A DNA stretch of 64,000 nt from Gammaproteobacteria bacterium. GTDB taxonomy: Bacteria > Pseudomonadota > Gammaproteobacteria > VBWC01. The stretch's first letter is position 1, and every line of letters begins with the position of its first letter. A program made the position numbers and the translations under genes. Below, in pieces: positions 28,076-42,952 of this stretch. Location of the stretch: contig JAHFRU010000006.1 in assembly GCA_023266115.1 (NCBI GenBank), positions 1 through 64,000 of the forward strand, given 5' to 3'. The notes below the pieces were generated by a model, which worked only from the letters and a program-made list of their open reading frames with translations, had not been told where the DNA came from and made no database searches.

Positions 28076-28093
28076 AGCGGTGAGGCGCGGTAC

Positions 28094-29017
28094 TTAGTCT
28101 CCCTTGCCATTGCCGCCATAGAGATGGCCGGCATTCTGGGCCGGATCGACCAGTTTGTTCCAGTTGAAGGCAAAGATATCAAAGCCCTTGCCTTCACCCT
28201 CATACTGTCCCCAGGTGAGATAGCGATACTTGCCGCCGGTCACGTTCACCTGCTTGCCATCGAGCGCGACATCGAAGCGCTGCGAGTCCGGCGGTGTCGA
28301 GGAGGGCGGGAAGTTATCCGGGAAGCTCGGAATATCGTTAAACGCGGAATCATTGACGGTGAGCTTGTTGCTCATCACGCCCGGGGTGGTCGCGGTATCG
28401 AAGTTGCTGTTGGTCATATCCAGCACGAAATCGATGTCCGCGTTCTGACCGGTCATGCTCTGGCTCAACTTGTGTTTCTGGCTGAGCTCGGTTTTGATCA
28501 GATCCTGCACCATGCCCTGGCTGTTGAGCACCTGGCGGAATACCGAACTCTTCGGATTACCGGTGCCGCTGCCGGAGAAGCTCGACGGGCCGCGCGGATC
28601 GTTGGCATCGATCAGGCTGAAATTGCTCGAGGTGCTACCAATACCGTCCGAGATCGGACCCTGGTCGTCACCGCCGCCCCTGGTGCGGGTCTTGATATAG
28701 GCCTCCTGGACAAACGACTCGCCGGGCAGGCCGATGATCACATGCCACCACTGGGCGCCGCCGGCGGTAAACAGCTCCATCAGGAACGGGGTGGTATCAC
28801 GGCTGTTATTGTCACGGAACTTGTCATTCTCATTGCAACCCCAGCGCTGCGGGCGGTTACAGCTGTGGCTGAAGACATTGTCGTCACCACCGCCGCGGCC
28901 GCTCTGGGGAGTGAAGTTCAGCGTGAACGGCCCCGCCTCCACTGGCGTGATGACGACCAGAGCAGCCAGAGATAGCACAATAACCGTTAATGAACGCGAT
29001 ATGGTAAGCACGGACAA
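28094..29017 (-). CDS. Exported protein of unknown family, paralogue 1
   Basis: A roughly 307-residue exported protein, not recognised. I take TTG at 29017 as start because GAGGCAG lies just upstream, the same element that precedes paralogue 2; the frame is open to 29035. A signal peptide (VLTISRSLTVIVLSLAALVVITPVEA) leads into a Gly/Asp/Ser-rich mature part starting with FTLNFTPQSG. Conserved points with the other two members include one SC...C pair, GG..WWH..IG.P, and a C-terminal DPAQN. From inside the signal peptide to near the stop it is identical to paralogue 2. A beta-rich extracellular or surface role is likely; no catalytic motif is visible. Confidence 0.75.
   Translation of the reverse strand: MSVLTISRSLTVIVLSLAALVVITPVEAGPFTLNFTPQSGRGGGDDNVFSHSCNRPQRWGCNENDKFRDNNSRDTTPFLMELFTAGGAQWWHVIIGLPGESFVQEAYIKTRTRGGGDDQGPISDGIGSTSSNFSLIDANDPRGPSSFSGSGTGNPKSSVFRQVLNSQGMVQDLIKTELSQKHKLSQSMTGQNADIDFVLDMTNSNFDTATTPGVMSNKLTVNDSAFNDIPSFPDNFPPSSTPPDSQRFDVALDGKQVNVTGGKYRYLTWGQYEGEGKGFDIFAFNWNKLVDPAQNAGHLYGGNGKGD
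28102..28977. repeat. 876-bp direct repeat, copy A
   Basis: This segment is identical to 29331-30206 (offset 1229). Translations of both strands in several frames agree residue for residue, which leaves no room for silent differences. The repeat covers the mature part of paralogue 1 and stops inside the signal-peptide codons. Confidence 0.95.
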
Positions 29018-29325
29018 ATCCTGCCTCAAAACCAAACCCCAACTTCATGCCGGTCCCGCTGGCAGTATCCGTCCGTTGGATAGGAAGTCCCCAGGAATCA
29101 TATATTTATTAAGGTACAAGCGGTTCCGGCAGTGTAACGAGGAGCGGAAACAGCGCTTGAATACCCCTGTTTATACGCGAAACAGATGGATTATTCAACC
29201 GCGGCGGTGAAGATGAGAGGGGATTTAAGGGTTGGTGAAACGGGCTGGTCAGGCCGCCGACACAATCGTTTTACGTCATCGGATCGAATAAGTGCGCCAT
29301 CGTCGGGAGAATATCGACTGGGCGC

Positions 29326-30291
29326 CTAATCCTTGCCATTGCCGCCATAGAGATGGCCGGCATTCTGGGCCGGATCGACCAGTTTGTTCCAGTTGAAGGC
29401 AAAGATATCAAAGCCCTTGCCTTCACCCTCATACTGTCCCCAGGTGAGATAGCGATACTTGCCGCCGGTCACGTTCACCTGCTTGCCATCGAGCGCGACA
29501 TCGAAGCGCTGCGAGTCCGGCGGTGTCGAGGAGGGCGGGAAGTTATCCGGGAAGCTCGGAATATCGTTAAACGCGGAATCATTGACGGTGAGCTTGTTGC
29601 TCATCACGCCCGGGGTGGTCGCGGTATCGAAGTTGCTGTTGGTCATATCCAGCACGAAATCGATGTCCGCGTTCTGACCGGTCATGCTCTGGCTCAACTT
29701 GTGTTTCTGGCTGAGCTCGGTTTTGATCAGATCCTGCACCATGCCCTGGCTGTTGAGCACCTGGCGGAATACCGAACTCTTCGGATTACCGGTGCCGCTG
29801 CCGGAGAAGCTCGACGGGCCGCGCGGATCGTTGGCATCGATCAGGCTGAAATTGCTCGAGGTGCTACCAATACCGTCCGAGATCGGACCCTGGTCGTCAC
29901 CGCCGCCCCTGGTGCGGGTCTTGATATAGGCCTCCTGGACAAACGACTCGCCGGGCAGGCCGATGATCACATGCCACCACTGGGCGCCGCCGGCGGTAAA
30001 CAGCTCCATCAGGAACGGGGTGGTATCACGGCTGTTATTGTCACGGAACTTGTCATTCTCATTGCAACCCCAGCGCTGCGGGCGGTTACAGCTGTGGCTG
30101 AAGACATTGTCGTCACCACCGCCGCGGCCGCTCTGGGGAGTGAAGTTCAGCGTGAACGGCCCCGCCTCCACTGGCGTGATGACGACCAGAGCAGCCAGAG
30201 ATAGCATACCAACGATCAGGCAACGGAACATCGTGAGCACGCGAGGCATTGCCAGCCGGGTGTCGATTTGTCTCAGTCGTGTTGTGTGCAT
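29326..30291 (-). CDS. Exported protein of unknown family, paralogue 2
   Basis: A 321-residue exported protein whose mature part is identical to paralogue 1. The ATG at 30291 has GAGGCAG seven bases upstream; an internal ATG at 30249 would give a shorter signal peptide. The signal sequences of the two paralogues are alignable (VLT..R.L.V..LSLAALVV) but clearly different, and identity begins at LSLAALVV. A sigma-54-type promoter lies about 110 bases upstream. Paralogue 1 follows in the same direction, so both may be expressed from that promoter. Function unknown. Confidence 0.78.
   Translation of the reverse strand: MHTTRLRQIDTRLAMPRVLTMFRCLIVGMLSLAALVVITPVEAGPFTLNFTPQSGRGGGDDNVFSHSCNRPQRWGCNENDKFRDNNSRDTTPFLMELFTAGGAQWWHVIIGLPGESFVQEAYIKTRTRGGGDDQGPISDGIGSTSSNFSLIDANDPRGPSSFSGSGTGNPKSSVFRQVLNSQGMVQDLIKTELSQKHKLSQSMTGQNADIDFVLDMTNSNFDTATTPGVMSNKLTVNDSAFNDIPSFPDNFPPSSTPPDSQRFDVALDGKQVNVTGGKYRYLTWGQYEGEGKGFDIFAFNWNKLVDPAQNAGHLYGGNGKD
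29331..30206. repeat. 876-bp direct repeat, copy B
   Basis: Partner of 28102-28977, separated from it by 353 non-repeated bases. Beyond the right edge the two copies still align weakly over the signal-peptide codons, showing an old duplication whose central part has been made identical later. Confidence 0.95.
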
Positions 30292-30679
30292 CTTACTGCC
30301 TCGACTTTTTCGGTATTGACGGTGCTTGCCAGTGCATTCCGTGGCGTCGCATCCTGCCGCTGAATCTGTTGCTTTCCCGAGTGCGTCTGATGATTAAAAT
30401 GCAAACGCTGTGCCACTAATATAATTTATTGTTTTTTAAATAAAATTAACGGAATAGTCGACCTCCTTAGGGTGTGCCTGTAAAACATTTCGACAGAGGG
30501 TGGGGTGAGGGCACGAAATTACCGCCGTGCATAGTGCAAGGCAGCACCCGGGCGGGTGACTAAATTAACGTAATTTCAGTTGCTTGGTGGTTAACGCAGG
30601 GCGCGGCGGGCAGTATCCGAGGCGGGGGAGGGATCCCGCCGGATCAGTCGGGAGCAAGGATTGGGAAAAAAACAGGCGG
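30292..30679. other. AT-rich promoter region upstream of paralogue 2
   Basis: 388 bases without a gene. The stretch 30415-30455 is strikingly AT-rich for this genome (runs such as TTTTTTAAATAAAATTAA) and lies directly upstream of the sigma-54-type element, where an activator or IHF could bind. No clear terminator for the preceding gene is seen beyond a T-run near 30667-30673 on the minus strand. Confidence 0.5.
30400..30415 (-). promoter_or_regulatory. Sigma-54 (RpoN) type promoter
   Basis: On the minus strand the sequence reads TGGCAC-AGCGT-TTGCA, which is TGGCAC-N5-TTGCA with GG and GC exactly ten bases apart, the hallmark of -24/-12 promoters. It points to paralogue 2, leaving a leader of roughly 100 bases. 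No activator gene is adjacent. Confidence 0.7.
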
Positions 30680-32782
30680 CTAGATCGATTTGGCGCGACG
30701 CCGGATGCTCGCTAACCAGGGCAGCAAGGCGAGCAACACGATCGGATGCAGGGCGCCGCCACTGGTGGTGTCGGTGCTGCTGCTGGTCGTCGGGCTGACC
30801 GACACGCTGCTGCCGCTGCTGCTGGCCGCTGGCAGGCCGGGGCCGCTCGGGTCGACTATCGTGCCGTTGACAACGCCGTCGGCATCGCCGACACCGCCAT
30901 CGATCAGTGTCACGACGGCGAACTTGCTGCCGAATTCGACGTTGCTGGTGTAGTCCGACAGCAATTCGGTAGCCGGGTCATACTTGTACCACTTCATGGC
31001 CGCGCTGAGCGTTTCGGGGAAGTAAAATGTCACCGTGACCATCGATGGATTGAACGCGTCGACCGGCAGCCCTTCAACCCGGAAGCTGAAGAATTCATAG
31101 AGAAGTTGGCCGTTCGGGACCTGGTCGGTCGGGAGAGTTGCTTTGGACATGACCGAAAGATTCTTGATAGTACCATTGTTTACCTTGATGCCGATGGTGT
31201 GTGTTTTCGAGACATCCAGTAGAGTGTGAATAGCCTCCGCCTGGTCATCGACACTGTTGCGGTTCGTGTCGACACCGGCGATGTGGTAACGGTCATCGTT
31301 GCCGTCGTTATCCAGATCAAACGGATCAGTGCTGACTGTCGTAAACCCAACGGGGCTGGACCAGTTAGAATACAGCCCGGTAAGGCCGCGATGGCGCGTC
31401 CGTATCCAGTAATTCGTCGCTTTTTTCAGTGTGCCGTAGGTCACCGTCAGGCGCCGATGTTCGACGGCGTTGGTTGCGGCAGTGGTTTTCTTCTCGATAA
31501 TTTTCTGTACGACATAATTTCCCGCGGTGAAATCGTTCACCTGACTGATTTCCCACTGGGAAGCAGTCAGGTAGTCGCCTTGCGCGATGTCCGGGCTGGA
31601 ATAGCCTTCAACGTCGAAAACGTATTTGTCCAGCGATACGTCACTATCGATCGCACGGATGACCGGCGCATTGGGGCGATGATCGCTCGGCGTATCGGTG
31701 GAAACGGAAGGATTCGAGCCGTAGCGCATTTCGTCGCCGTCAGTGATCCCGTCGCCGTCGGTGTCCACGCTGTTCGGATTGGTGCCCCGCAGGTATTCGT
31801 CGCGATCAAGCAAGCCGTCACCGTCAGTATCGGTAGTGCCGTCGGCGACCGACCGGCTGCCGAAATTCTGTATTTCCCACTCGTCAAGCAGACCATCGTT
31901 GTCAGTATCGGTCGGCGGGTAATAACTGACTGTAATCACTTTTACCGTCGCGTCGTTATACGGGCTGCTATCCGTCGCGACGATCGTTAATGTGTTTGGC
32001 CCGGTGGCAAGCGCCATGTCCAGGTGCCAGTTCGCGGTGTCGTTTCCGGACGCGAATCCGTCGTTCGCAACGAGGCCGTCGACCGTTACCGACTGGATGC
32101 CGCTGTCCCCGAAGCCTCCATCGGAGGCGGTGCCACTGATCGTGACGTTCGGATCCGTGACTGTAGCGCTATCAGCGGGACTGGTGATGGTTAACGCCGG
32201 CGGTTGCAGATACTCCGCAGTGACGCGGAAGTATCTTGTCTGGGGAGTCATGATCCATCCGGTATTGAAGAAGTATTCGGAAGCTTCCCGCATGTCGATC
32301 ACCGTGTCGGTCGTCAGATCGGTGAGCGTCAATTGCGTGGTGGCCGGCAGGTTGGCGTTCGAAATGTCCCAACTCACCATCGCGTCCTGGAGTTTGAACC
32401 GGGCGGCGTAGACCAGCGTGAAATCCCAGACCTGCATGCGCGCGGTCTTGCGGATATCGTACAGAAATTGCGTTTCCGCCTGTCCCCACTCGGGATGTTC
32501 GAAGTAAGCGTTGACATCGGTAGTGGTGGGGAAGGCGGGCGCATCATACTGGGTATCAAAATCATTTTCGGCGTCTGGAAACTGTCCGATCGTGAGGGTG
32601 CTCATGACGGGGCTGACTCCGCCGCTGATCTTGGCGGTCCATCCGTGATTGCTCGCATGGGCGCTGGTACCGAACAGACAAAGTGCCGCCATGATCACGG
32701 GAGCGATCAGTTGCGGCATACGATTCCGCTGCGAAGAATCTCTGCCGGTCATTGCCCGCGATGTCACATCGATCCTGTTCAT
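30680..32782 (-). CDS. Exported Ca-repeat protein with choice-of-anchor-like domain and GlyGly-type sorting tail
   Basis: A 700-residue surface protein. After a signal peptide (LIAPVIMAALCLFGTSAHA) come an unassigned beta domain, an Ig-like domain (LTITSPADSATVTDPNVTISGTA) and thrombospondin type-3-like calcium repeats (DTDNDGLLDEWE, DTDGDGLLDRDE, DTDGDGITDGDE). A fibronectin-like part and a domain ending LIDGGVGDADGVVNGTIVDPSGPG, typical of choice-of-anchor U domains, follow. The C-terminus is a Ser/Thr linker, GG, a hydrophobic helix (IVLLALLPWLA) and an Arg cluster, as in GlyGly-CTERM substrates of rhombosortase. The ATG at 32782 overlaps the previous stop (TGATG), so it is coupled to the fibronectin-III gene. 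Confidence 0.78.
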   Translation of the reverse strand: MNRIDVTSRAMTGRDSSQRNRMPQLIAPVIMAALCLFGTSAHASNHGWTAKISGGVSPVMSTLTIGQFPDAENDFDTQYDAPAFPTTTDVNAYFEHPEWGQAETQFLYDIRKTARMQVWDFTLVYAARFKLQDAMVSWDISNANLPATTQLTLTDLTTDTVIDMREASEYFFNTGWIMTPQTRYFRVTAEYLQPPALTITSPADSATVTDPNVTISGTASDGGFGDSGIQSVTVDGLVANDGFASGNDTANWHLDMALATGPNTLTIVATDSSPYNDATVKVITVSYYPPTDTDNDGLLDEWEIQNFGSRSVADGTTDTDGDGLLDRDEYLRGTNPNSVDTDGDGITDGDEMRYGSNPSVSTDTPSDHRPNAPVIRAIDSDVSLDKYVFDVEGYSSPDIAQGDYLTASQWEISQVNDFTAGNYVVQKIIEKKTTAATNAVEHRRLTVTYGTLKKATNYWIRTRHRGLTGLYSNWSSPVGFTTVSTDPFDLDNDGNDDRYHIAGVDTNRNSVDDQAEAIHTLLDVSKTHTIGIKVNNGTIKNLSVMSKATLPTDQVPNGQLLYEFFSFRVEGLPVDAFNPSMVTVTFYFPETLSAAMKWYKYDPATELLSDYTSNVEFGSKFAVVTLIDGGVGDADGVVNGTIVDPSGPGLPAASSSGSSVSVSPTTSSSTDTTSGGALHPIVLLALLPWLASIRRRAKSI

Positions 32783-35700
32783 CACCTGTAGAACCTCAGC
32801 TTGATCGTCCCGCCGGTTTCGACGCGTAACCAGTAGGCCTTCCATGCCTTCAGAATCATGCTTCCATCCGTCGTACTTTGGGTCACATCGTACTGGCTGG
32901 TCGAAGGCGTGTAGTAATAGATGATGTTATCCAGCCAGACATTTTGAACCGCGTTGTCCGGATTGCTGACACTCCAGTAGGGTTTCCAGTTGCTTGCGTT
33001 GGTGCAGCCGGGTGTCAGTGTCGCATTGCACACTTTCATGTGGGCAGAGTTAAGCATGTCCTTGTCGGCGAGATACGGATTGCCGATCATGTTGCCGCCG
33101 GCCTGTAGCGTTACGTCGACGCAGAGCACGCCGGGGAAGTTGACAGGATCGCATTCGGCCATGTCTTCGCCGTTAAACTCATCGTCGATCATGTCCTTGC
33201 CATCGTTGGAGTACATCCAGTAGCCAATCCCTCTGATTGCGCCCATCGTGCTGCCGTTTTCAGCGATGGCAGGCAATACGCTGCCTGCCACCTGATAGCT
33301 GCCAGTGAAATGGGCGGGATCGCCCGCGCTAACCCATTCGTAGACGCTCGGTTGCTGGCCGATGTCGGATGAAAACAGCACATCGAAATCGTCTTCAGTG
33401 GCCAGGTTCGTGGGGATAGAAAGCATGTTCCAGCCCGTTTCGAGCGAAACAGCCATCCCTCCGTAAACAATGGACGCGAACATCTGGGTGACGCGGTAGG
33501 AACCGGTGCCGTTGACATTCGCCACGAGTCCGACGAGGTTGTTGACGTCGGTCCAGGACCATGCGGCGCCGGTCTGCGGATTGTTGATGTAGATCGGCGT
33601 CGATTTGGTTTCCCATGTCGTGTTGCTGATATTATTCAGAATCGGACCGTAGAATTCGACACCGTTCGTTTTCAGGCCGACCTTGACCTGATCGCTGGTC
33701 TTTGTGGTGCTTTCGCGCATGATGACGGTGACCTGTACCGAGCGTATCGTCGTGCCCGCCGCGGGATTATCGAAATCCATCATCAGTTTCTGCGTACTGC
33801 TGTTGGACAATGACCCGTACGAGGTATTGCCGTCATCGGCATCAAGCGCGGTTGCTGCGGTGCCGGTGAACCCTGCGTTGTTGCCGGTCGCGGCGCCTGA
33901 AGGATAGATGACCAGATTGCCGCCGTTGCCGGACGCCACCGTGGTGTAGCTGACGACGTTCGACAGCGGTGAAGTGTTGTTGTTGTCGTCGATAGTCTTG
34001 ATCGCAAAGTAGTAGAGCGTGGCCGGCTGCAGGCCCTGAACCTTGAATGTCTGCTGGGTGCCGGCGATCAGCGGTATCGGTTCACTGGTGGCCTGAGTGG
34101 CAGTCGCCCAGTTGCCACTGGTAATGGTTGCTGTCGAGTACCGGATGTCGTAGGTGGTCGCTGTGCCGATCGCGCCGTCGTCGCCCGGGGCGGTCCATGT
34201 CAGGAACGTGGCCGTTTGTGACGGCAGGCTGGTAATCACGGCCAGGTTGGTAATGGCCGACGGTACGCGGGTATCGGTGACTTCCGTCGACGCGGTGGGT
34301 TGATTAGAGATATTGGACTTGTTCGGCACCTCGTCGTCGGTCGTCATCCCGAAGTAATAGGTGCGGTTTGGTATCAGGCCGGCGATGGTCATTTGCTGGA
34401 CAGTGCCAGCGACCGCTGGTGCCAGTTCTCCGCTGACGTGGAAGGCTGATATCCAGTTGTTGCTGGTAATTGGCGACGTGTAATAGCGGATGTCGTAGGT
34501 GGTCGCGGTGCCGGTATTGCCGTTGTCGCCCGGTGCCGTCCAGCGGATCACCGCGAGATTGCTGGTGATGTCGAGTATCGTCAGATTGGTGATATCGGCC
34601 GGCGCGACGACGTCGGCAATGGTGGTTGCGCTGGGCGAGTTCGACGCGCCGGCCTTGTTGGGTACCTCATCGGCGGTCTTGATCGCGAAGTAGTATGTCG
34701 TGTTCTGGTACAGCGCGGTGACGGTGAAGTTCTGGCTGTTTCCGGGGGCAAGCGGTGCCGGTGGGCTGGTTACGACAGTCGCGGTGTCCCAGTTGGTGTC
34801 GTTGATGGCGCTACCGGTCTGGTAGCGGATATCGTAGCTGGTCGCAGTACCCACCATGCCGTCGTCGCCCGGAGCGGTCCAGCTCAGTTGAACGGACCCT
34901 TCGCCCGTGGTTACGGCGGCAAGGTTGCTGATTGTTGAAGGCGGCACGGCTTCAAGCGTAGTCGTGCTCGCGACATTGGACAGCGCGCTGATGTTCGGCA
35001 CCTCGTCGCGGGTCCGGATAGCGAAGTAATAGATCGTCAGCGGTGTCAGCCCGGTCACCGTATACTGCGCGCCGCCGCCCGGGTTGGTCGGTGTCGGTTC
35101 ACCGACGACCTGCGTACGCGTGGCCCAGTTCGCGTCGTTAATGGGTGACGTGGAGTAACGAATATCAAATAGTTTGGCGACCCCGCTGCTGCCGTCGTCA
35201 CCGGGTTCTGTCCAGGTCAGGCGCGCCGTTGAGTTGGTCACGTTTGCGACGCTCAGATTTGAAACGGCGGCTGGCGCGGTCGTATCGGTTTCGGAGTATT
35301 CAATTTCGGCCCACAGCTCGGTAATGCGGTGTTCGCCGTTATTGGTCAGTTTGTCGACCATCGCTTCGAGGCTGTTGATGTCGGCCCAGGTCCAGGCCGC
35401 GCCACTGTTGGGGTTGGTGTAATATTGCGTTCCCGAATACAGGACGTAGCTGTTACTGATATTGAAGATCGTGCTGCCCCAGTAGTCGACGCCGCCGATC
35501 TTCAGGCCGATACGCACGTTATCGCTGCTGGAACCATCCGAGTCGCGGATGTAGGCGCGAATACGCACGGAGATAATGCTGCCGACACCGACCGGATCAT
35601 CAAGCGCGGCCCTTGTCATCGGGGTGCTGCTCTTGTTGAGGCGCGCATACGAGGTGTCGTTGTCCTTGGTGTCCATCGCCGTTGCGGCCGTGCCGCTCGA

Positions 35701-37416
35701 ATAGCTGCTCGTGGTATCGCCCGTGGCAGCACCCGACGGATGGACCTTCATTACGCCCGCGCTGCCGACATTCAGCGTCTTTATGCTGACAACGTTCGAC
35801 AGGCCGCTGATATTCGGGACCTCGTCGGAGGTCTTGAGTGCGAAATAGTAGGTGGTGCCGGGCGCGAGACCGGGCACGGTAAAGACTTCCGTGTTGCCGG
35901 CGAGTTGTGGCGCCGGTTCGCCGCTGGCCTGCGTGGCGCTGGCCCAATTCCCGCTCGTTATGGTTGAGGTCGAATAACGTACGTCATAGCTCGTGGCCGT
36001 GCCGGTATTGGTACTGTCGCCCGGGGCTGTCCAGGTCAGGGTTACCGAGATCTGCGAACTCGGCGTGGTCGTTGCCAAGTCGGTGGTCGCGCCGGGTGGC
36101 GTACTATCCACCAGATCGGTAGTCGTGCTGGGCGAGTTAGACAGCGCGCTCCAGTTGCTGACCTCGTCAACCGCCTTCAGTCCGAAATAGTAGGTGGTAG
36201 ACGGGTTGAGATCGGTTACCCAGAACGACTCGGTAGCGCCGTAGGCCTGTGGCGCTGACTCATTTTGCACCTGCGTTGCGGTGGCCCAGTTGCCGTCGGT
36301 GACTGCGCCGCCGGTTCTGTAGCGAATATCGTACGCGGTCGCGCGGCCGACCGTTCCGGAATCACCAGGGGCGGACCATGTCAACTGGACGGTTGCATCG
36401 GTTTTGCCGCCGGTAGCGAGGTTGGATACGGTGTTCGGCGGTCCGCCGTCCAGCCCGATGGTTGTGTTGACCGAGTTACTGACCGCCCCCTGATTGGCTT
36501 CCTCGTCAGTCGCGCGGATTGCGAAGTAGTAGGTGCCATTGCTGGGTAAATATGCCGTGTAGGACTGATTGGTGCCGGCGACTTGCGGTGCAGGCAAACC
36601 GGTCAGTGTGGTCGCCGCCGCCCAGTTTTGCGGAATGACAGCCTGATCGGTGAGATACCGTATCTCGTAACTGGTCGCGGTACCTGTGTTGCCGTCGTCG
36701 CCCGGTGCACTCCAGGTCAGCTGTATCGATTCGTTGGCGGTGGTGCCGATGGCAAGATTGGTAATCTGCGACGGAGCCACTGCGTCGGTCTTGCAAGTAT
36801 TCGGGTCGAGTATCTTCGCACCGTCCGGAAAATGGGTGGGGCCAGAGGGGAAGATGCCGCCCGGAAGATTGCCGCTATTGGTTGTGACGTAGATTCCGTC
36901 CAGCTTGTGATTTCCTTCGCGTACCCAAATGTTCAGCGTGTGCGCGCCGGTTGACGCGACATTGATCGTGTTTACGCCCATCTGGGTCGTTGTTGAATAC
37001 ACCCACTGATACCAGTAGCCGTTTTCGTTGATTGCGCCGACATACGTGCCATCCAGTCCGACGAACACGGAATCCGAACTGCCGTTCAGCGCGAAGCCGC
37101 GTATCCAGACGTAATACGTGCCCGTGGTATTGAACAGTACCTGGTAGTTCGCTCGCTGGTTATCGGGGGGTATGTCGGTGCTGCCGCGGTCGCTGAACAG
37201 ATAGCTGTTACCGTTCGCGTACGGCTCGGTGCTCTGAACGCGGAAGATGCCGGGGCCGGTACCATTGGTCAGTGACGTGTAGTTCTCGGCTTCGATATAG
37301 GTGCCTGCCGGATCGACGTAACAGGTAACAGCGTGCGCGCTGCCTAATCCCAGGCCGAAAGCGGTCAACAGGCTGGTCAGCAGGATACGTATGGATTTGG
37401 CGTTAACAGTATTCAT
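32782..37416 (-). CDS. Giant exported fibronectin type III repeat protein
   Basis: A 1544-residue exported protein. A signal peptide (about 1-29) is followed by a CBM6-like domain (YIEAENYTSLTNGTGPG, GTYYVWIRGFALNG) that may bind carbohydrate. Next come three fibronectin-III repeats, a beta-sandwich unit (GLKIGGVDYWGSTIFNIS), four more fibronectin-III repeats, and a second copy of that unit (GLKTNGVEFYGPILNNIS). The C-terminal region contains GWNMLSIPTN and paired cysteines. Each repeat carries LTW(S/T)APGD-G and TYYFAIKT. No enzyme motif was seen; adhesion or matrix scaffolding is inferred. It shares an overlapping stop/start with the downstream calcium-repeat gene. Confidence 0.8.
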   Translation of the reverse strand: MNTVNAKSIRILLTSLLTAFGLGLGSAHAVTCYVDPAGTYIEAENYTSLTNGTGPGIFRVQSTEPYANGNSYLFSDRGSTDIPPDNQRANYQVLFNTTGTYYVWIRGFALNGSSDSVFVGLDGTYVGAINENGYWYQWVYSTTTQMGVNTINVASTGAHTLNIWVREGNHKLDGIYVTTNSGNLPGGIFPSGPTHFPDGAKILDPNTCKTDAVAPSQITNLAIGTTANESIQLTWSAPGDDGNTGTATSYEIRYLTDQAVIPQNWAAATTLTGLPAPQVAGTNQSYTAYLPSNGTYYFAIRATDEEANQGAVSNSVNTTIGLDGGPPNTVSNLATGGKTDATVQLTWSAPGDSGTVGRATAYDIRYRTGGAVTDGNWATATQVQNESAPQAYGATESFWVTDLNPSTTYYFGLKAVDEVSNWSALSNSPSTTTDLVDSTPPGATTDLATTTPSSQISVTLTWTAPGDSTNTGTATSYDVRYSTSTITSGNWASATQASGEPAPQLAGNTEVFTVPGLAPGTTYYFALKTSDEVPNISGLSNVVSIKTLNVGSAGVMKVHPSGAATGDTTSSYSSGTAATAMDTKDNDTSYARLNKSSTPMTRAALDDPVGVGSIISVRIRAYIRDSDGSSSDNVRIGLKIGGVDYWGSTIFNISNSYVLYSGTQYYTNPNSGAAWTWADINSLEAMVDKLTNNGEHRITELWAEIEYSETDTTAPAAVSNLSVANVTNSTARLTWTEPGDDGSSGVAKLFDIRYSTSPINDANWATRTQVVGEPTPTNPGGGAQYTVTGLTPLTIYYFAIRTRDEVPNISALSNVASTTTLEAVPPSTISNLAAVTTGEGSVQLSWTAPGDDGMVGTATSYDIRYQTGSAINDTNWDTATVVTSPPAPLAPGNSQNFTVTALYQNTTYYFAIKTADEVPNKAGASNSPSATTIADVVAPADITNLTILDITSNLAVIRWTAPGDNGNTGTATTYDIRYYTSPITSNNWISAFHVSGELAPAVAGTVQQMTIAGLIPNRTYYFGMTTDDEVPNKSNISNQPTASTEVTDTRVPSAITNLAVITSLPSQTATFLTWTAPGDDGAIGTATTYDIRYSTATITSGNWATATQATSEPIPLIAGTQQTFKVQGLQPATLYYFAIKTIDDNNNTSPLSNVVSYTTVASGNGGNLVIYPSGAATGNNAGFTGTAATALDADDGNTSYGSLSNSSTQKLMMDFDNPAAGTTIRSVQVTVIMRESTTKTSDQVKVGLKTNGVEFYGPILNNISNTTWETKSTPIYINNPQTGAAWSWTDVNNLVGLVANVNGTGSYRVTQMFASIVYGGMAVSLETGWNMLSIPTNLATEDDFDVLFSSDIGQQPSVYEWVSAGDPAHFTGSYQVAGSVLPAIAENGSTMGAIRGIGYWMYSNDGKDMIDDEFNGEDMAECDPVNFPGVLCVDVTLQAGGNMIGNPYLADKDMLNSAHMKVCNATLTPGCTNASNWKPYWSVSNPDNAVQNVWLDNIIYYYTPSTSQYDVTQSTTDGSMILKAWKAYWLRVETGGTIKLRFYR

Positions 37417-37760
37417 GCGCGCTTGGTGTTAGCCCTTAAACATTAATCGCAGTTTGCTACCGCGATCCGTTTACGTACCGCTGCATCCCTGCACCGTTGA
37501 TTGGCTTCCATACGCTGGATCTTGCTGGTGACCTCCTGCGGCTGCCGTTGTTGGCGTGCCCGTCGGATGTCTCCGGAATTCGTACTATCCCCGTGGGGAT
37601 CAGCCCGTCAGGGCCGGGAAAGGTGAGCACTGCTTACACACTCTTTCAGTGAACATATCGGCCGAAAAGCGCCAAAACTTTAACTCCGTCACATTTGCTA
37701 CCGTGCTGGTAGCGCGCAAGAATTTCAATCGGCGACAGTGCGCTAATACGTGGTATCGGA
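37417..37760. other. Intergenic region upstream of the fibronectin-III gene
   Basis: 344 bases without a gene. It holds a short palindrome ATCCCC-GT-GGGGAT at 37587-37600 and, next to it, GCCC-GTCA-GGGC at about 37603-37614. On the minus strand these could fold as adjacent small hairpins in the leader of the fibronectin-III mRNA. No match to a cyclic-di-GMP riboswitch was found. Confidence 0.35.
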
Positions 37761-38912
37761 CTACTGTGGCATCGCGCCGGGAGTCACGCCGCACCACGGA
37801 TCGCCACCGCAGGGATTCTGGGCGGGATCCATGAACTCTTCCCATTTGACCAGGTTGAGGTCAAGCCCGGCGCCGCCTATGTAGGCATAGGTGCCTTTGT
37901 CATAGATCTTGCCGTTGCCGATGCCCCAGCTATTGAAATCGGCGACGCGGCTGCGATAGGTTATGTTCGGGCGTGAGTTCGACCAGCCCAGGCCTGGGGT
38001 AAAGGTATACTGGCCTGCGGTACGCACCGTGTTGACGGCATCGTGAGCGTAATCGAAATCATAGAGGCCCAGTACCGAGTCCTGTCCAGGCGGTTGCGGC
38101 GGGTTACCGTCGGCGTGGATCAGCCGGTTCACAAAGACCTGCGGATCGGCGATATTGCTGCTGGTGGGCAACACCGCGCCCATCGACGAGTGATTGCCGG
38201 CACTCATATCGGCCTTGAACTCCAGCGTTATCTCGCTGTTCGCCACGATCTGGGTGATTTTTGGTTTCTCGGCGATCTCGCTCTTCTCGAAATCGAAGGT
38301 CAGCTCGGAATCGAACGTGAGCTGCTTCATCGCGACCTTGGTCGGGTTTTGATAGCCGTTGGCCTGTATCTCCGGGTTATGGCCCAGCGGTCGACAGGCG
38401 AAGCCGATCGTGCGCCAGCAGTTGCCGCCGGAGGTTGAAAAGCCCTGGTCGAAGTCGAACGGGATAAAACCGGCGCCGTCGCCCACCTTGTTCGAGCTGA
38501 AGTTACCGTCGATGAAATCGGCATTGCTGGCATAGTCCGGATTGACTGTGCCTTGCTGGACATAGTATTCCAGCGCGAAGCCGTCCAGCGGGTCGCCAAC
38601 GACCATATGCCAGTATTTGACGCCGCCGATGGTGACAATCTGGTTTAGCCAATCGGTCGGGGTCGAAGACTGTCCATCCGGGTTGCTGCCACTCTCCATG
38701 TCGCAGTTGTTATTGCCGAAGCGGCCACAGCTCTGACTGGCTTTGCCCACCGTGGTTGCGCCTGAGACGGAGGCGAAATTAAATGTGAAGGTTGCGGCGT
38801 GCGCTGTGTTCAGTCCCGTCAACAGCCAAAGCCCGGCAATCAGGAGCACCAGGTGTCCCGCCACGATCTGTTTTCTTCGTCCGTCCGTGGAGGTGTGTAT
38901 GCATGTCAACAT
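37761..38912 (-). CDS. Exported protein of unknown family, divergent paralogue 3
   Basis: A 383-residue exported protein with a signal peptide (VLLIAGLWLLTGLNTAHA). It aligns weakly with paralogues 1 and 2: FTFNFASVSG at the mature start, SCGR....C, GGVKYWHMVVGDP, EI.EKPKITQ with the following acidic stretch, and MDPAQNPCGG near the end. It is longer and has extra cysteines (CWRTIGFACRP, C..DPWC). Its start is preceded by AGTAGGCAG, similar to the sites of the other two. Its presence upstream of the fibronectin-III gene suggests a shared surface structure. Function unknown. Confidence 0.75.
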   Translation of the reverse strand: MLTCIHTSTDGRRKQIVAGHLVLLIAGLWLLTGLNTAHAATFTFNFASVSGATTVGKASQSCGRFGNNNCDMESGSNPDGQSSTPTDWLNQIVTIGGVKYWHMVVGDPLDGFALEYYVQQGTVNPDYASNADFIDGNFSSNKVGDGAGFIPFDFDQGFSTSGGNCWRTIGFACRPLGHNPEIQANGYQNPTKVAMKQLTFDSELTFDFEKSEIAEKPKITQIVANSEITLEFKADMSAGNHSSMGAVLPTSSNIADPQVFVNRLIHADGNPPQPPGQDSVLGLYDFDYAHDAVNTVRTAGQYTFTPGLGWSNSRPNITYRSRVADFNSWGIGNGKIYDKGTYAYIGGAGLDLNLVKWEEFMDPAQNPCGGDPWCGVTPGAMPQ

Positions 38913-39698
38913 CGGCTGCCTACTCGGCGGATGTGGTCCAGCACTGTCGCGGTCATGACCACAAATTGAAAGTCAGGCACGGCTGCCCTTGATTGGGGTA
39001 TCGGCCGGTCTTAAACGCTACTTGAATTGGCAAAAACGGTATGTGGCGTAACGCATTGAAAAAATTTCATATATCTTGCATTCGACGGTCGAGGTCGCTT
39101 CCGCAGCGTTCTCGGTTCTGTAATGGGCTGGTTGGCGCTGTCGTTCCAGCGGTTCCGGCTCGGGCCCACGATATTTCCCCTGGTGATCGCGCCGAGCGAC
39201 ACCGGTGTCTGCGATCTGGCGGCGGGACCCCTGCTCCAGGGCTGGTAGAGGTGTTGAAGTTTGAAAGCCGCCCCCGGTGGAGAATGCTGCTGCGGGTAGT
39301 TATCGGCTTGAACCAACCGGATCACGAGCGGTTTCGCGCTGGCGTCATGGATGGTTAGATCGATGTTCCGGTTTTCTGCAATATTCGGTTTCCCGACGTC
39401 AAGAAGCTGATTCGGTATCGGGCATGGTCAGATTGACCCAGCTGCAGGTGCAAGTATTCGGAGCGCGACCAGGTGCATTGCGGGCCCGCGAGATTGATTT
39501 CCGAAGGTAAACCTGGAGCCGCTGTCGGAGCGGAAGGATGCGTTTTGTCAGCGAGTCCAGTACGGCTGGGGGTCAGTGAAACCCGGGCGCCGTCAGAGTC
39601 GGTCCGGCTACGCTGTGTTTGCATGTCTCGGGGGTGCCAGAGGCTTGATGGTTCGATCAAGGCTGGCGTGCTCTTTTATAAGCCGTAAAGAGCTCGTG
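38913..39698. other. Intergenic region with no supported gene
   Basis: About 790 bases between paralogue 3 and the magnetochrome-like gene. Short plus-strand frames (for example 39041-39358) show no ribosome site or recognisable protein. On the minus strand a hairpin, with arms at 39670-39676 and 39687-39693, follows the magnetochrome-like gene without a T-run and may mark its transcript end. Confidence 0.4.
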
Positions 39699-40175
39699 TC
39701 ACTGTCCCGGAACAATAATCCTGTGGCAGGAAGCGCAGACCATTTTCTCCCGCCCGTCGCGGTGTGGCGCCGGAGTGCCCGACACTATGGCGGGAACGGC
39801 CTGTCGTATCGGTGGCATATTCGGATTGTGCCCGACTGGGCTGCGGATCAGGATCTGATGGCAGGTTTCACAGACCATTCTTTCTCTGCCGTCGGTGTGC
39901 GGCGCCGGAACACCTGCCACTATCGGCGGGGCCGCGCGGCTGGTTGCCAGCGGCAGGCGCATGTTAGCGGCGTTTTCCGGTATCAGGATGCGATGACAGG
40001 TGCCGCACGCCATGTTTTCCCTTCCATCACGATGCGGTGCCGGTGTGCCGGCGACGATTGCGGGTGCATCATCGTAACCTTCATCTTCCCAGATATGATC
40101 CGGAAGCAGCGCGATGCCTATCAACGCGACAAGAAAGCCGATACCTGCGGCCATTATCCATTCATGTTTGGTCAT
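39699..40175 (-). CDS. Three-haem magnetochrome-like c-type cytochrome
   Basis: A 158-residue protein with one N-terminal membrane anchor (WIMAAGIGFLVALIGIALL) and three near-identical domains facing the periplasm. Each domain reads P.IV.G.PAPH.DGRE.M.C..CH. The haem sites are Cys57-Cys60-His61, Cys102-Cys105-His106 and Cys147-Cys150-His151. A preceding histidine (48, 93, 138) repeats at exactly 45-residue spacing and could be the second haem ligand. This is the pattern of the magnetochrome domain of MamE, MamP, MamT and MamX, which usually carry two copies. It starts 42 bases after the MamZ-like gene, with AGGCGG as ribosome site. No other typical magnetosome genes are in the window. Confidence 0.8.
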   Translation of the reverse strand: MTKHEWIMAAGIGFLVALIGIALLPDHIWEDEGYDDAPAIVAGTPAPHRDGRENMACGTCHRILIPENAANMRLPLATSRAAPPIVAGVPAPHTDGRERMVCETCHQILIRSPVGHNPNMPPIRQAVPAIVSGTPAPHRDGREKMVCASCHRIIVPGQ

Positions 40176-40217
40176 GATCCGCCTGTCACGTGCGCTGGTT
40201 GTCGGTGAACTTTGCCA

Positions 40218-42305
40218 CTATGATTCGGTCGCTTCTTCGGGCGCTCGCGGTGTTCTTCTGCGCCGTTTCGTTCGCGGGGTCACGTCCTCGTCCATCTGTT
40301 CGAGAATCGGCCGAATTTCGAAATAGTCGTCAGTCGGTTCCGGTTTGGGTGGTGGCGCGGTGCTGACGTGTACCTTGCCTCCGGCGGACAGATCGGGCCG
40401 GATCTCGAGCAACCAGTGTTCGAAAAGATGGCGTACGCCATGGCCCTGATAACCGCGGCTCTTGCGTAGCCGGTAGCCAAGCAACATCACGACGGCGGCC
40501 CCCATCAACGCCGGGAGGAAATAATTCCGGTCGGTAACCAGCACGAAATGCAGTATCACCAATAAATCGATGATATATACCGTTCGGTGCAGCGCCTTCC
40601 AGCGCTTGCCGCCGAGTTTTCTGACCATCTCGTTAGTCGACGTTGCCGCCAATGGGATTAGCATCACGAAGGCGAGGATGCCGACCGTAATTGCCGGCCG
40701 GTCAACGATGTCATTCCAGATATCGACCCAGTGGAAACCGAATTCGAACCATACGTAGTTGACCACGTGCAAACAGGCGTAGAAAAACGCGAACAGGCCG
40801 AGCATCCGCGAATAACGTGCAATCTTGTTGACGCCGGTCATTTCGCGAAATGGTCGCAACGCGAGTGAAACAATGAGCAGATACAGCGCCCAATCGCCCA
40901 GATAACGTTGCTGATATCCGACCGGTAGGTTATCGATGTCATTGTTCGGGATTGCGTGCGTGACGAACAGACGCCCCAGGAACCAGATAAACGGCAGCAG
41001 GCACAGCATAAACACAAGGGGTTTGAACCCGCTTTTGTCTGCGGTTATCAGCGAAGTGCCACGGACTTCGGCTCTCCAAAGCCAGTAGCCGTAAGTCGAT
41101 ATCAGCAGATTGCCGGTACCGATCAGCATAAACGGCGCATGCGGACCGATCGTATCGAAATAAAAACCGCCGGCTTGAACCAAAAATACGATGCCCAGGC
41201 CGCCGACGAAATAAAAGAATCCGAGCACCGATCCCATCAGGTCCTTGGGAGCGAGCTCTATGGTCAGTATCTGCGGGGCGATCAAGCAACCGGCCTGACC
41301 CAGCGCAATCATGATCGTCGGAATATAGATATATCCTTCGAATGGACTGTTGATGAACACGAGGGAAACAAAGCCCACGCCCGAAAGGCTAAGACCGACG
41401 GCGATTGAAGCGACGCGACCATAGCGGCGGATGAACGCGGCCCATACCGGAATAGAGAGCAGTATCGTGGCGCCGCCAAAGGCAATCAATGTTCCAGCCT
41501 GCGCGGCTGCCTGTTCACGCGTCAGGCCATCAAGATCCGCGAAGTAGATGCACCACATCATCACAAACAGGCTGACAAACACCATATCGCTGCGTGAATA
41601 AAACGCGGTGGCGAACGTCAAATGCATTTTGGGTTCGTTGGCAACCAGCTTAAAGACGCGCCGCCACGGAATGCCTTCTTCTTCCAGCCGCGGCGCAACT
41701 TCGACAAGCTGGTGTTTTGCCAGCCACGCGCCTGCAAGTGCGACGATGAACGGTAACGCCAGCAATATCATCAGTCCGCTGTCACCCTGTTGCGGCAGAC
41801 GCATCAGAATCGCGTAAACGATTGTGCCGCCGAATACCGTCATGAAGGTGGTTTTGGCGACCAGTGACGTGCGGTTCTCGGCGTTGGTGTAATCACCTGC
41901 CAGTGTCCAGAGCTGTGGCCCGTAGGCGCAGCTGCCGAGCGACATGATGATGCGGGTCAAGTAATAGAATGTTAGTGCGCCGAGACCGAGTACCGTGCCG
42001 AGCGGCAGGCTGAGCGGCATGAAGAAAGCACCGAGCGCCGTCGTCAGGAAACCAAACACGATGATCGGTTTACGACCGATGCGATCCGACAGATAACCGA
42101 GAACACCAATCAGCAAAAGACTGCCGATTTCTGCTGCGATCTGTACGCTCGCGTTAACCGCGCCAGCGGATTCGAACGGGATCTCGAGAATTCGATCGAG
42201 AAACAGCGGCTGTATACCGACTACCAGCGTCATGCACACGGTCGATATTGCCGACAGCAGGAAAACTGTATTCCAATGATGTTTTTCGATTGGCCGTTCC
42301 GTCAT
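40218..42305 (-). CDS. MamZ-like MFS transporter fused to a ferric-reductase-like domain
   Basis: A 695-residue membrane protein. Residues about 10-410 form a major facilitator with the loop motif GYLSDRIGRKPI. Residues about 458-609 form a YedZ/MsrQ-like haem-binding domain with candidate ligands in FFYACLHVVNY, KALHRTVY and VILHFVL. A charged cytoplasmic tail follows. This MFS plus ferric-reductase fusion is the architecture of MamZ, which in Magnetospirillum works with the magnetochrome protein MamX on magnetosome iron redox state; here a magnetochrome-like gene also lies directly downstream. Transport of iron or another metal with redox control is inferred. Other MFS-YedZ fusions exist outside magnetotactic bacteria, so the name is by resemblance only. 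Confidence 0.75.
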   Translation of the reverse strand: MTERPIEKHHWNTVFLLSAISTVCMTLVVGIQPLFLDRILEIPFESAGAVNASVQIAAEIGSLLLIGVLGYLSDRIGRKPIIVFGFLTTALGAFFMPLSLPLGTVLGLGALTFYYLTRIIMSLGSCAYGPQLWTLAGDYTNAENRTSLVAKTTFMTVFGGTIVYAILMRLPQQGDSGLMILLALPFIVALAGAWLAKHQLVEVAPRLEEEGIPWRRVFKLVANEPKMHLTFATAFYSRSDMVFVSLFVMMWCIYFADLDGLTREQAAAQAGTLIAFGGATILLSIPVWAAFIRRYGRVASIAVGLSLSGVGFVSLVFINSPFEGYIYIPTIMIALGQAGCLIAPQILTIELAPKDLMGSVLGFFYFVGGLGIVFLVQAGGFYFDTIGPHAPFMLIGTGNLLISTYGYWLWRAEVRGTSLITADKSGFKPLVFMLCLLPFIWFLGRLFVTHAIPNNDIDNLPVGYQQRYLGDWALYLLIVSLALRPFREMTGVNKIARYSRMLGLFAFFYACLHVVNYVWFEFGFHWVDIWNDIVDRPAITVGILAFVMLIPLAATSTNEMVRKLGGKRWKALHRTVYIIDLLVILHFVLVTDRNYFLPALMGAAVVMLLGYRLRKSRGYQGHGVRHLFEHWLLEIRPDLSAGGKVHVSTAPPPKPEPTDDYFEIRPILEQMDEDVTPRTKRRRRTPRAPEEATES

Positions 42306-42865
42306 TTTTCTTCTACCTAAATGGTTGCCCGGTTACACGCCCCGACATGTGTCCGACCGAAAACAAGGCAACGCTGGAGCTGGCTACTCAGCGCGTTCGC
42401 AGGCCGACATCGACACCAAACGTTCGCAAAGTCTACATGAGAAAAACCGTAACAAGAACACTCTTGTTTCAGGGTAACGCAATGATTTTCAATCCTTAAT
42501 GAGATTGAAAATCATCTGCGCAGTAGTGTGTGGGACCGAACTGTGTGGTTGGCGATATGATATGTCGCGTTAGACAGGAAACCGGGTCAGCCGCCACGCA
42601 GTTAGCGCGCGTTGCTGATGATTTTCTTTAGCGCGGAATTGGTCCGCGATCATGCAAAAAAGCGATACATAATGCGCGCACAACTGCGGATGCCGATCGA
42701 GCGGGCGTCATTTTCGCGCGCCATCCTTCCGGCGTGGTGGCCGGTCTGACCGGGCCCCGGGCTGCAGCAAAGACATGCCGCGCGGTTGGCCCTCAAGAGA
42801 CAAGTATTTCTTTTTTAGAACAATTGCTTGCGCGGTACCGCGCAATGGGGTATCGTGCTGCGGAT
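42306..42865. other. Intergenic region upstream of the MamZ-like gene
   Basis: About 560 bases between the MamZ-like gene and tRNA-Leu. The notable element is the inverted repeat at 42482-42515. No supported gene is present. The right island border should lie close to tRNA-Leu, but no duplicate of the tRNA 3' end was found near purA. Confidence 0.4.
42482..42515. promoter_or_regulatory. Perfect 13-bp inverted repeat, possible operator
   Basis: ATGATTTTCAATC (42482-42494) and GATTGAAAATCAT (42503-42515) are exact reverse complements with an 8-base centre. The element is AT-rich, 177 bases upstream of the MamZ-like start. Each arm ends in AATCAT/ATGATT, reminiscent of Fur half-sites, but the full Fur box is not matched. 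Confidence 0.45.
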
Positions 42866-42952
42866 TGGTGCCGAGGAGAGGACTTGAACCTCCACGAGGT
42901 TTCCCCCACTAGCACCTGAAGCTAGCGCGTCTACCAATTCCGCCACCTCGGC
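42866..42952 (-). tRNA. tRNA-Leu (anticodon CAG)
   Basis: On the minus strand the acceptor GCCGAGG pairs with CCTCGGC, followed by A and an encoded CCA (42868-42866). The anticodon stem CTAGC/GCTAG holds loop TTCAGGT, anticodon CAG at 42918-42916. The long variable arm and GGTTCAAGTCC T-loop fit a leucine tRNA. Its 3' end faces the accessory island, the usual orientation for a tRNA used as an integration site. Confidence 0.96.

Follow-up and report, generated by a model that had tools for sequence, protein, structure and literature searches.

A mamZ gene with a short, magnetochrome-only mamX outside the main magnetosome gene cluster of a gammaproteobacterium

In a gammaproteobacterial genome, we found a mamZ gene followed by a short mamX gene whose product carries three magnetochrome (MCR) haem domains and lacks the MamS-like C-terminal domain, both genes being detached from the magnetosome cluster and in reversed order. 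This combination is a new form of an already described system; it is not free-standing. We consider it highly probable that the pair represents the MamZ and MamX components of the magnetosome machinery of a magnetotactic gammaproteobacterium, located at a tRNA-Leu gene separate from the main cluster, with a MamX cut down to an anchor and three haems and with a putative role in iron redox and transport at the magnetosome membrane. The stretch of DNA that was analysed, referred to below as the window, comprises positions 1 to 64,000 of contig C16; the assembly spans 3.10 Mb and is 98% complete.

Results

The mamZ gene (40218..42305, on the minus strand, as are all features of the pair given below) is an intact open reading frame (ORF) of 695 amino acids, in which a Pfam search found an MFS domain (MFS_1, PF07690, 2.6e-33; residues 14-374, 41184..42266) together with a ferric reductase-like haem domain of the YedZ/MsrQ type (Ferric_reduct, PF01794, 6.1e-17; residues 470-582, 40560..40898). 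This confirms the fusion of an MFS transporter with a YedZ-like haem domain, the MamZ architecture, that was described in the initial annotation. The MFS part is related to MamH, with 540.9 bits for the NCBIfam MamH model over residues 6-417 (cut-off 300). Because the ORF passes the cut-off of the curated MamZ equivalog (NF040998; 770.2 bits, cut-off 650), its profile match identifies the protein as MamZ, which is firmer than 'MamZ-like'. A profile search of the contigs of the genome returned the window copy as the sole MamZ above cut-off, and this copy shares 35-54% identity with the MamZ proteins of magnetotactic genomes beyond its own genus. Three histidines of the haem domain, His513, His573 and His586 (the last falling just beyond the PF01794 match), are invariant in all 28 aligned MamZ. 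The predicted structure (pLDDT 81, pTM 0.81) is helical across the MFS and haem parts, and the best PDB matches of the protein are MFS folds.

The short mamX gene (39699..40175) starts 42 bp after mamZ and is an intact ORF of 158 amino acids. Residues 3-23 (40107..40169) form a helix in the predicted structure, with high pLDDT in that segment of a model of low overall confidence (pLDDT 68, pTM 0.29); the hydropathy peak of 2.48 lies in the same region, and the predicted helix supports membrane anchoring. The Pfam MCR profile matches the protein at 4.6e-38 and 128.9 bits (gathering score 30.4) with three separate domain matches, namely CGTCH (domain 1; 39984..40064, 49.5 bits), CETCH (domain 2; 39849..39929, 57.7 bits) and CASCH (domain 3; 39708..39794, 50.1 bits). 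The CxxCH motifs start at residues 57, 102 and 147, thus at spacings of 45 and 45, and all three units satisfy the magnetochrome pattern PH-x-CxxCH published by Arnoux and co-workers (PMC3971196). Pairwise, the units are identical at 19-22 of 32 residues. Three CxxCH motifs are not a product of chance, since none of 20,000 residue shuffles of the protein contained as many. Coordinates, MCR matches and helix therefore bear out the annotated membrane-anchored protein with three magnetochrome-like CxxCH domains at 45-residue spacing, 42 bases after the fusion gene. A three-domain magnetochrome protein is less unusual than the initial annotation suggested, and we dropped the number of haem domains as the chief novelty: other MamX have two to four CxxCH, some of them three or four.

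The NCBIfam MamX equivalog gave the short protein 167.5 bits, under the cut-off of 400, with the match confined to the N-terminal half of the model. The protein aligns with 24 full-length MamX from the anchor through the tandem MCR haem motifs; in a subset of 15 sequences, W6, W29, D31, Y34, PH and CxxCH are invariant between the short and the other MamX, and in the MamX alignment the histidine and CxxCH haem ligands of magnetochrome domains 1 and 2 are invariant. As judged from these alignments, the 158-aa protein is a homologue of the N-terminal half of MamX and, because its score stays below the equivalog cut-off, it is classed as an MCR-only variant of the MamX type and not as canonical MamX. 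PDB sequence matches of the short protein were set aside, as nearly all were designed proteins matched via the anchor segment. The profile checks of both proteins that had been proposed earlier thus came out in favour of the annotation, with the MamZ cut-off passed, Pfam MCR passed and the N-terminal half of MamX matched.

Upstream of the pair lie a tRNA-Leu(CAG) gene (42866..42952, minus strand, ARAGORN), followed by rnr, rlmB and rpsF; beyond the opposite end of the pair come ORFs for secreted or surface proteins and then purA, hisZ, hflC and hflK. The pair is directly downstream of the tRNA gene, which is the probable insertion point. In three non-magnetotactic gammaproteobacteria with the same gene order (G020, G015 and G012), about 60-130 bp separate purA from tRNA-Leu, compared to 14.8 kb (28076..42865) in the window, and this stretch, which holds the pair and the ORFs for secreted or surface proteins, is absent from these relatives by locus comparison. 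Gene order thus places the pair within a lineage-specific insertion beside a tRNA gene. In 8 of 11 other gammaproteobacterial loci scanned, tRNA-Leu(CAG) is likewise immediately upstream of rnr, and the insertion is conserved in the sister genome (L095/L050) from at least 30215 onward. At about 55-56%, the pair is only slightly lower in GC content than its surroundings. An integration repeat of the tRNA end of at least 12 bases was not found in the window, and a promoter scan gave matches no better than in shuffled sequence.

The same insertion contains, on the minus strand at 30680-38912, three large ORFs of the secreted or surface type, one with TSP3 and choice-of-anchor U domains, one with six fibronectin type III domains and one without matches. 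Just after purA, it also bears an exact direct repeat of 300 bp (28102-28401 and 29331-29630) that belongs to a tandemly duplicated unit with a spacing of 1,229 bp, bearing ORFs without Pfam matches.

The absence of other visible mam genes, noted in the initial annotation, holds for the examined parts of the 64-kb window and not for the genome. A whole-genome search located a magnetosome cluster on contig C35, at about 408-431 kb, with mamA (minus strand), mamI, mamE, a 530-aa ORF, mamK, mamM, mamN, mamO, mamP, mamQ, mamB, mamS, mamT, another CDF transporter and mamH. The set of eight genes given as universal among magnetotactic bacteria (mamA, B, E, I, K, M, P and Q; PMC9840458) is complete, mamK being called from an MreB/Mbl profile match at the mamK position and not from a MamK model. 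MamI, M, N, O, B, T and H score above their curated cut-offs; MamA, P, Q and S are slightly and MamE clearly (599 vs 800) below theirs, which we read as divergence of the lineage. The sister species has the same layout in two places, with a detached pair at a distance of at least about 80 kb from the cluster, as computed from contig ends. Of the readings proposed initially, 'part of a cluster elsewhere in the genome' therefore came closest, in that a cluster with the eight core genes exists; the pair itself lies outside it.

Within the C35 cluster, MamE has three magnetochrome domains (L009:13908-16607), and the MamE of another genome, G492, has four (L090:14408-17047). The 530-aa ORF between mamE and mamK (L009:16677-18269) contains three short ASPWA-type repeats and has no Pfam or NCBIfam match; it sits where Magnetospirillum has mamJ and could be a MamK-linking protein. 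The CDF transporter after mamT, the third of the cluster (L010:10105-11253), scores under the MamB, MamM and MamV cut-offs.

A phylum-wide scan with follow-up yielded 28 mamZ-mamX pairs including that of the window, collected with MamX and MCR profiles so that genomes with a lone mamZ are not counted; in all 28 the two genes are adjacent. In 24 of them, all from beyond the genus of the window and family f207, the order is mamX-mamZ and MamX has 245-347 residues, two to four CxxCH and a C-terminal MamS-like domain. The remaining four (the window, its sister G001, G454 and G492) have the order mamZ-mamX and a MamX of 152-182 residues without the MamS-like domain, so that among the 28 pairs the short MamX and reversed order recur outside the genus of the window only in G454 and G492. 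These two genomes belong to family f207 of another class, probably the Zetaproteobacteria, as the small size of the 78 genomes sampled from that class would fit; a zetaproteobacterial magnetosome cluster is on record (PMC5955933). In both genomes the pair lies inside the cluster.

The MamZ tree joins the genus of the window to f207 with support of 99/97. In a tree of the haem domains all MamZ fall in one clade (100/100), separate from stand-alone MsrQ, and the window and f207 are first to branch among MamZ (92/88 for their join, 97/91 for the rest). Since the haem domains form a single clade, the MFS-haem fusion probably arose once; an independent origin in the lineage of the window is not supported by this tree, and the MFS tree, having no outer root, cannot alone decide on it. 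Stand-alone MsrQ gave no match in the window genome or its sister, where the lone YedZ-type match lies within MamZ. The profile scores and the tree, the latter also proposed in the initial annotation, therefore rule out that the proteins fit unrelated multihaem or MFS-MsrQ families better. Both genes are under strong purifying selection, with dN/dS values (mamZ 0.043, mamX 0.024) comparable to that of rnr (0.049).

A profile of the MamX C-terminal domain matches the MamS of the same genome (1.5e-17) and MamS of relatives. The same profile found no match in six frames of the window and hence no remnant near the short mamX; a profile search of the genome likewise found no full-length MamX, the window match being confined to N-terminal model positions. 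The MamX anchor profile gave 27.4 bits for the short MamX and, more weakly, 13.8 bits for its own-genome MamS. Given the matches of both profiles to MamS, full-length MamX looks like MamS with magnetochrome domains between anchor and C-terminal domain, and in the lineage of the window the same parts lie on two proteins, the short MamX and MamS. A separate mamS-like match is also present in genomes with full MamX.

Discussion

The invariant haem ligands, the purifying selection and the smaller crystals that result from mamX deletion (PMC3847676) are the grounds on which we infer an iron-redox and transport role for the pair. Both MamZ and the short MamX would be inserted in the magnetosome membrane, where the MFS part of MamZ would move iron or a related ion. 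To our knowledge, the transported substrate or ion has been established for no MamZ. Transmembrane electron exchange between the b-type haem domain of MamZ and the lumenal c-type haems of the short MamX would determine the Fe(II)/Fe(III) ratio from which magnetite forms; for MamX, which way the electrons flow is reported as unknown (PMC3971196). The domain missing from the short MamX may be provided in trans by MamS, whose anchor is similar and which contains that domain.

A free-standing metal-redox transport module in a non-magnetotactic bacterium, unrelated to magnetosomes, was among the readings first suggested, and it would fit the absence of further mam genes near the pair in the window and the location of pair and cluster on different contigs. 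A magnetosome cluster accompanies the detached pair in each of the two genomes known to carry it, the present one and its sister, and MCR scores over cut-off in only 5 of 369 gammaproteobacterial genomes, each with at least five MCR matches that include proteins of MamE, MamP and MamT length; in the class of G454 MCR occurs in only 2 of 78 genomes, both with the pair inside the cluster. We thus hold this reading to be very improbable. We think equally little of a relic, i.e. genes left behind and now decaying after the cluster was moved or replaced: the position of the pair outside the cluster and the lack of the C-terminal domain are what decay might look like, but dN/dS of 0.02-0.04, near that of rnr, intact motifs for every haem and the same short form within the clusters of G454 and G492 argue against it. 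Neither is the pair supported as an ancestor of the magnetosome module, as the initial annotation also suggested, although it belongs to the MamZ branch that splits first in the haem-domain tree.

With a score below the MamX equivalog cut-off and a whole domain missing, the role of the short MamX may differ from that of MamX. It might, for example, relay electrons between MamZ and the respiratory chain instead of serving in iron redox control; besides the missing MamS-like domain, three consecutive haems could act as a wire, and in MamP the haems of the MCR domains are exposed to solvent (PMC3971196). The preserved adjacency to mamZ and MCR motifs as in MamX speak against such a role, which we regard as rather unlikely, although less so than the readings above.

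Under the preferred reading, a MamZ/MamX part of the magnetosome system, the closest known counterpart is the mamXY(Z) operon of Magnetospirillum and Magnetococcus, where MamX likewise sits beside MamZ, MamZ combines an MFS and a YedZ domain and MamX consists of an anchor with magnetochrome haems. Unlike in that operon, mamZ comes first here, no mamY was seen beside the pair, MamX has three haems instead of the usual two and lacks the MamS-like C-terminal domain, and the pair lies at a tRNA gene apart from the main cluster. The detached position is not new in itself, since a published survey describes mamXYZ genes as often inserted into the main cluster or scattered beyond it (PMC9840458). The pair of family f207 shares the mamZ-mamX order and the MCR-only MamX of 152-182 aa, and its MamZ is 52-54% identical to that of the window and sister to it in the tree; it differs in lying within a mamAB-like cluster next to other mam genes. 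MsrQ/YedZ, the haem subunit of the periplasmic methionine sulfoxide reductase, resembles MamZ in its membrane haem domain with three conserved histidines, which are 60 and 13 residues apart in MamZ and have the same spacing in E. coli MsrQ. Unlike MamZ, MsrQ has no MFS domain, and it falls outside the clade of MamZ haem domains.

As a wider and tentative proposal, which we judge possible and short of probable, MamX may exist in two forms: one in a single piece with anchor, haems and MamS-like domain, and one that is split, with a haem-only MamX working with MamS. The split form would accompany a separate early MamZ branch and a reversed gene order, and could be carried as an islet of two genes next to a tRNA gene, separate from the main cluster.

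Conclusions

The short MamX offers a natural minimal MamX with which to ask whether the haems or the MamS-like domain control magnetosome iron redox, and whether MamS and MamX act together. Moreover, the MamZ/MamX unit can persist away from the main magnetosome cluster, so that surveys confined to the cluster will overlook it.
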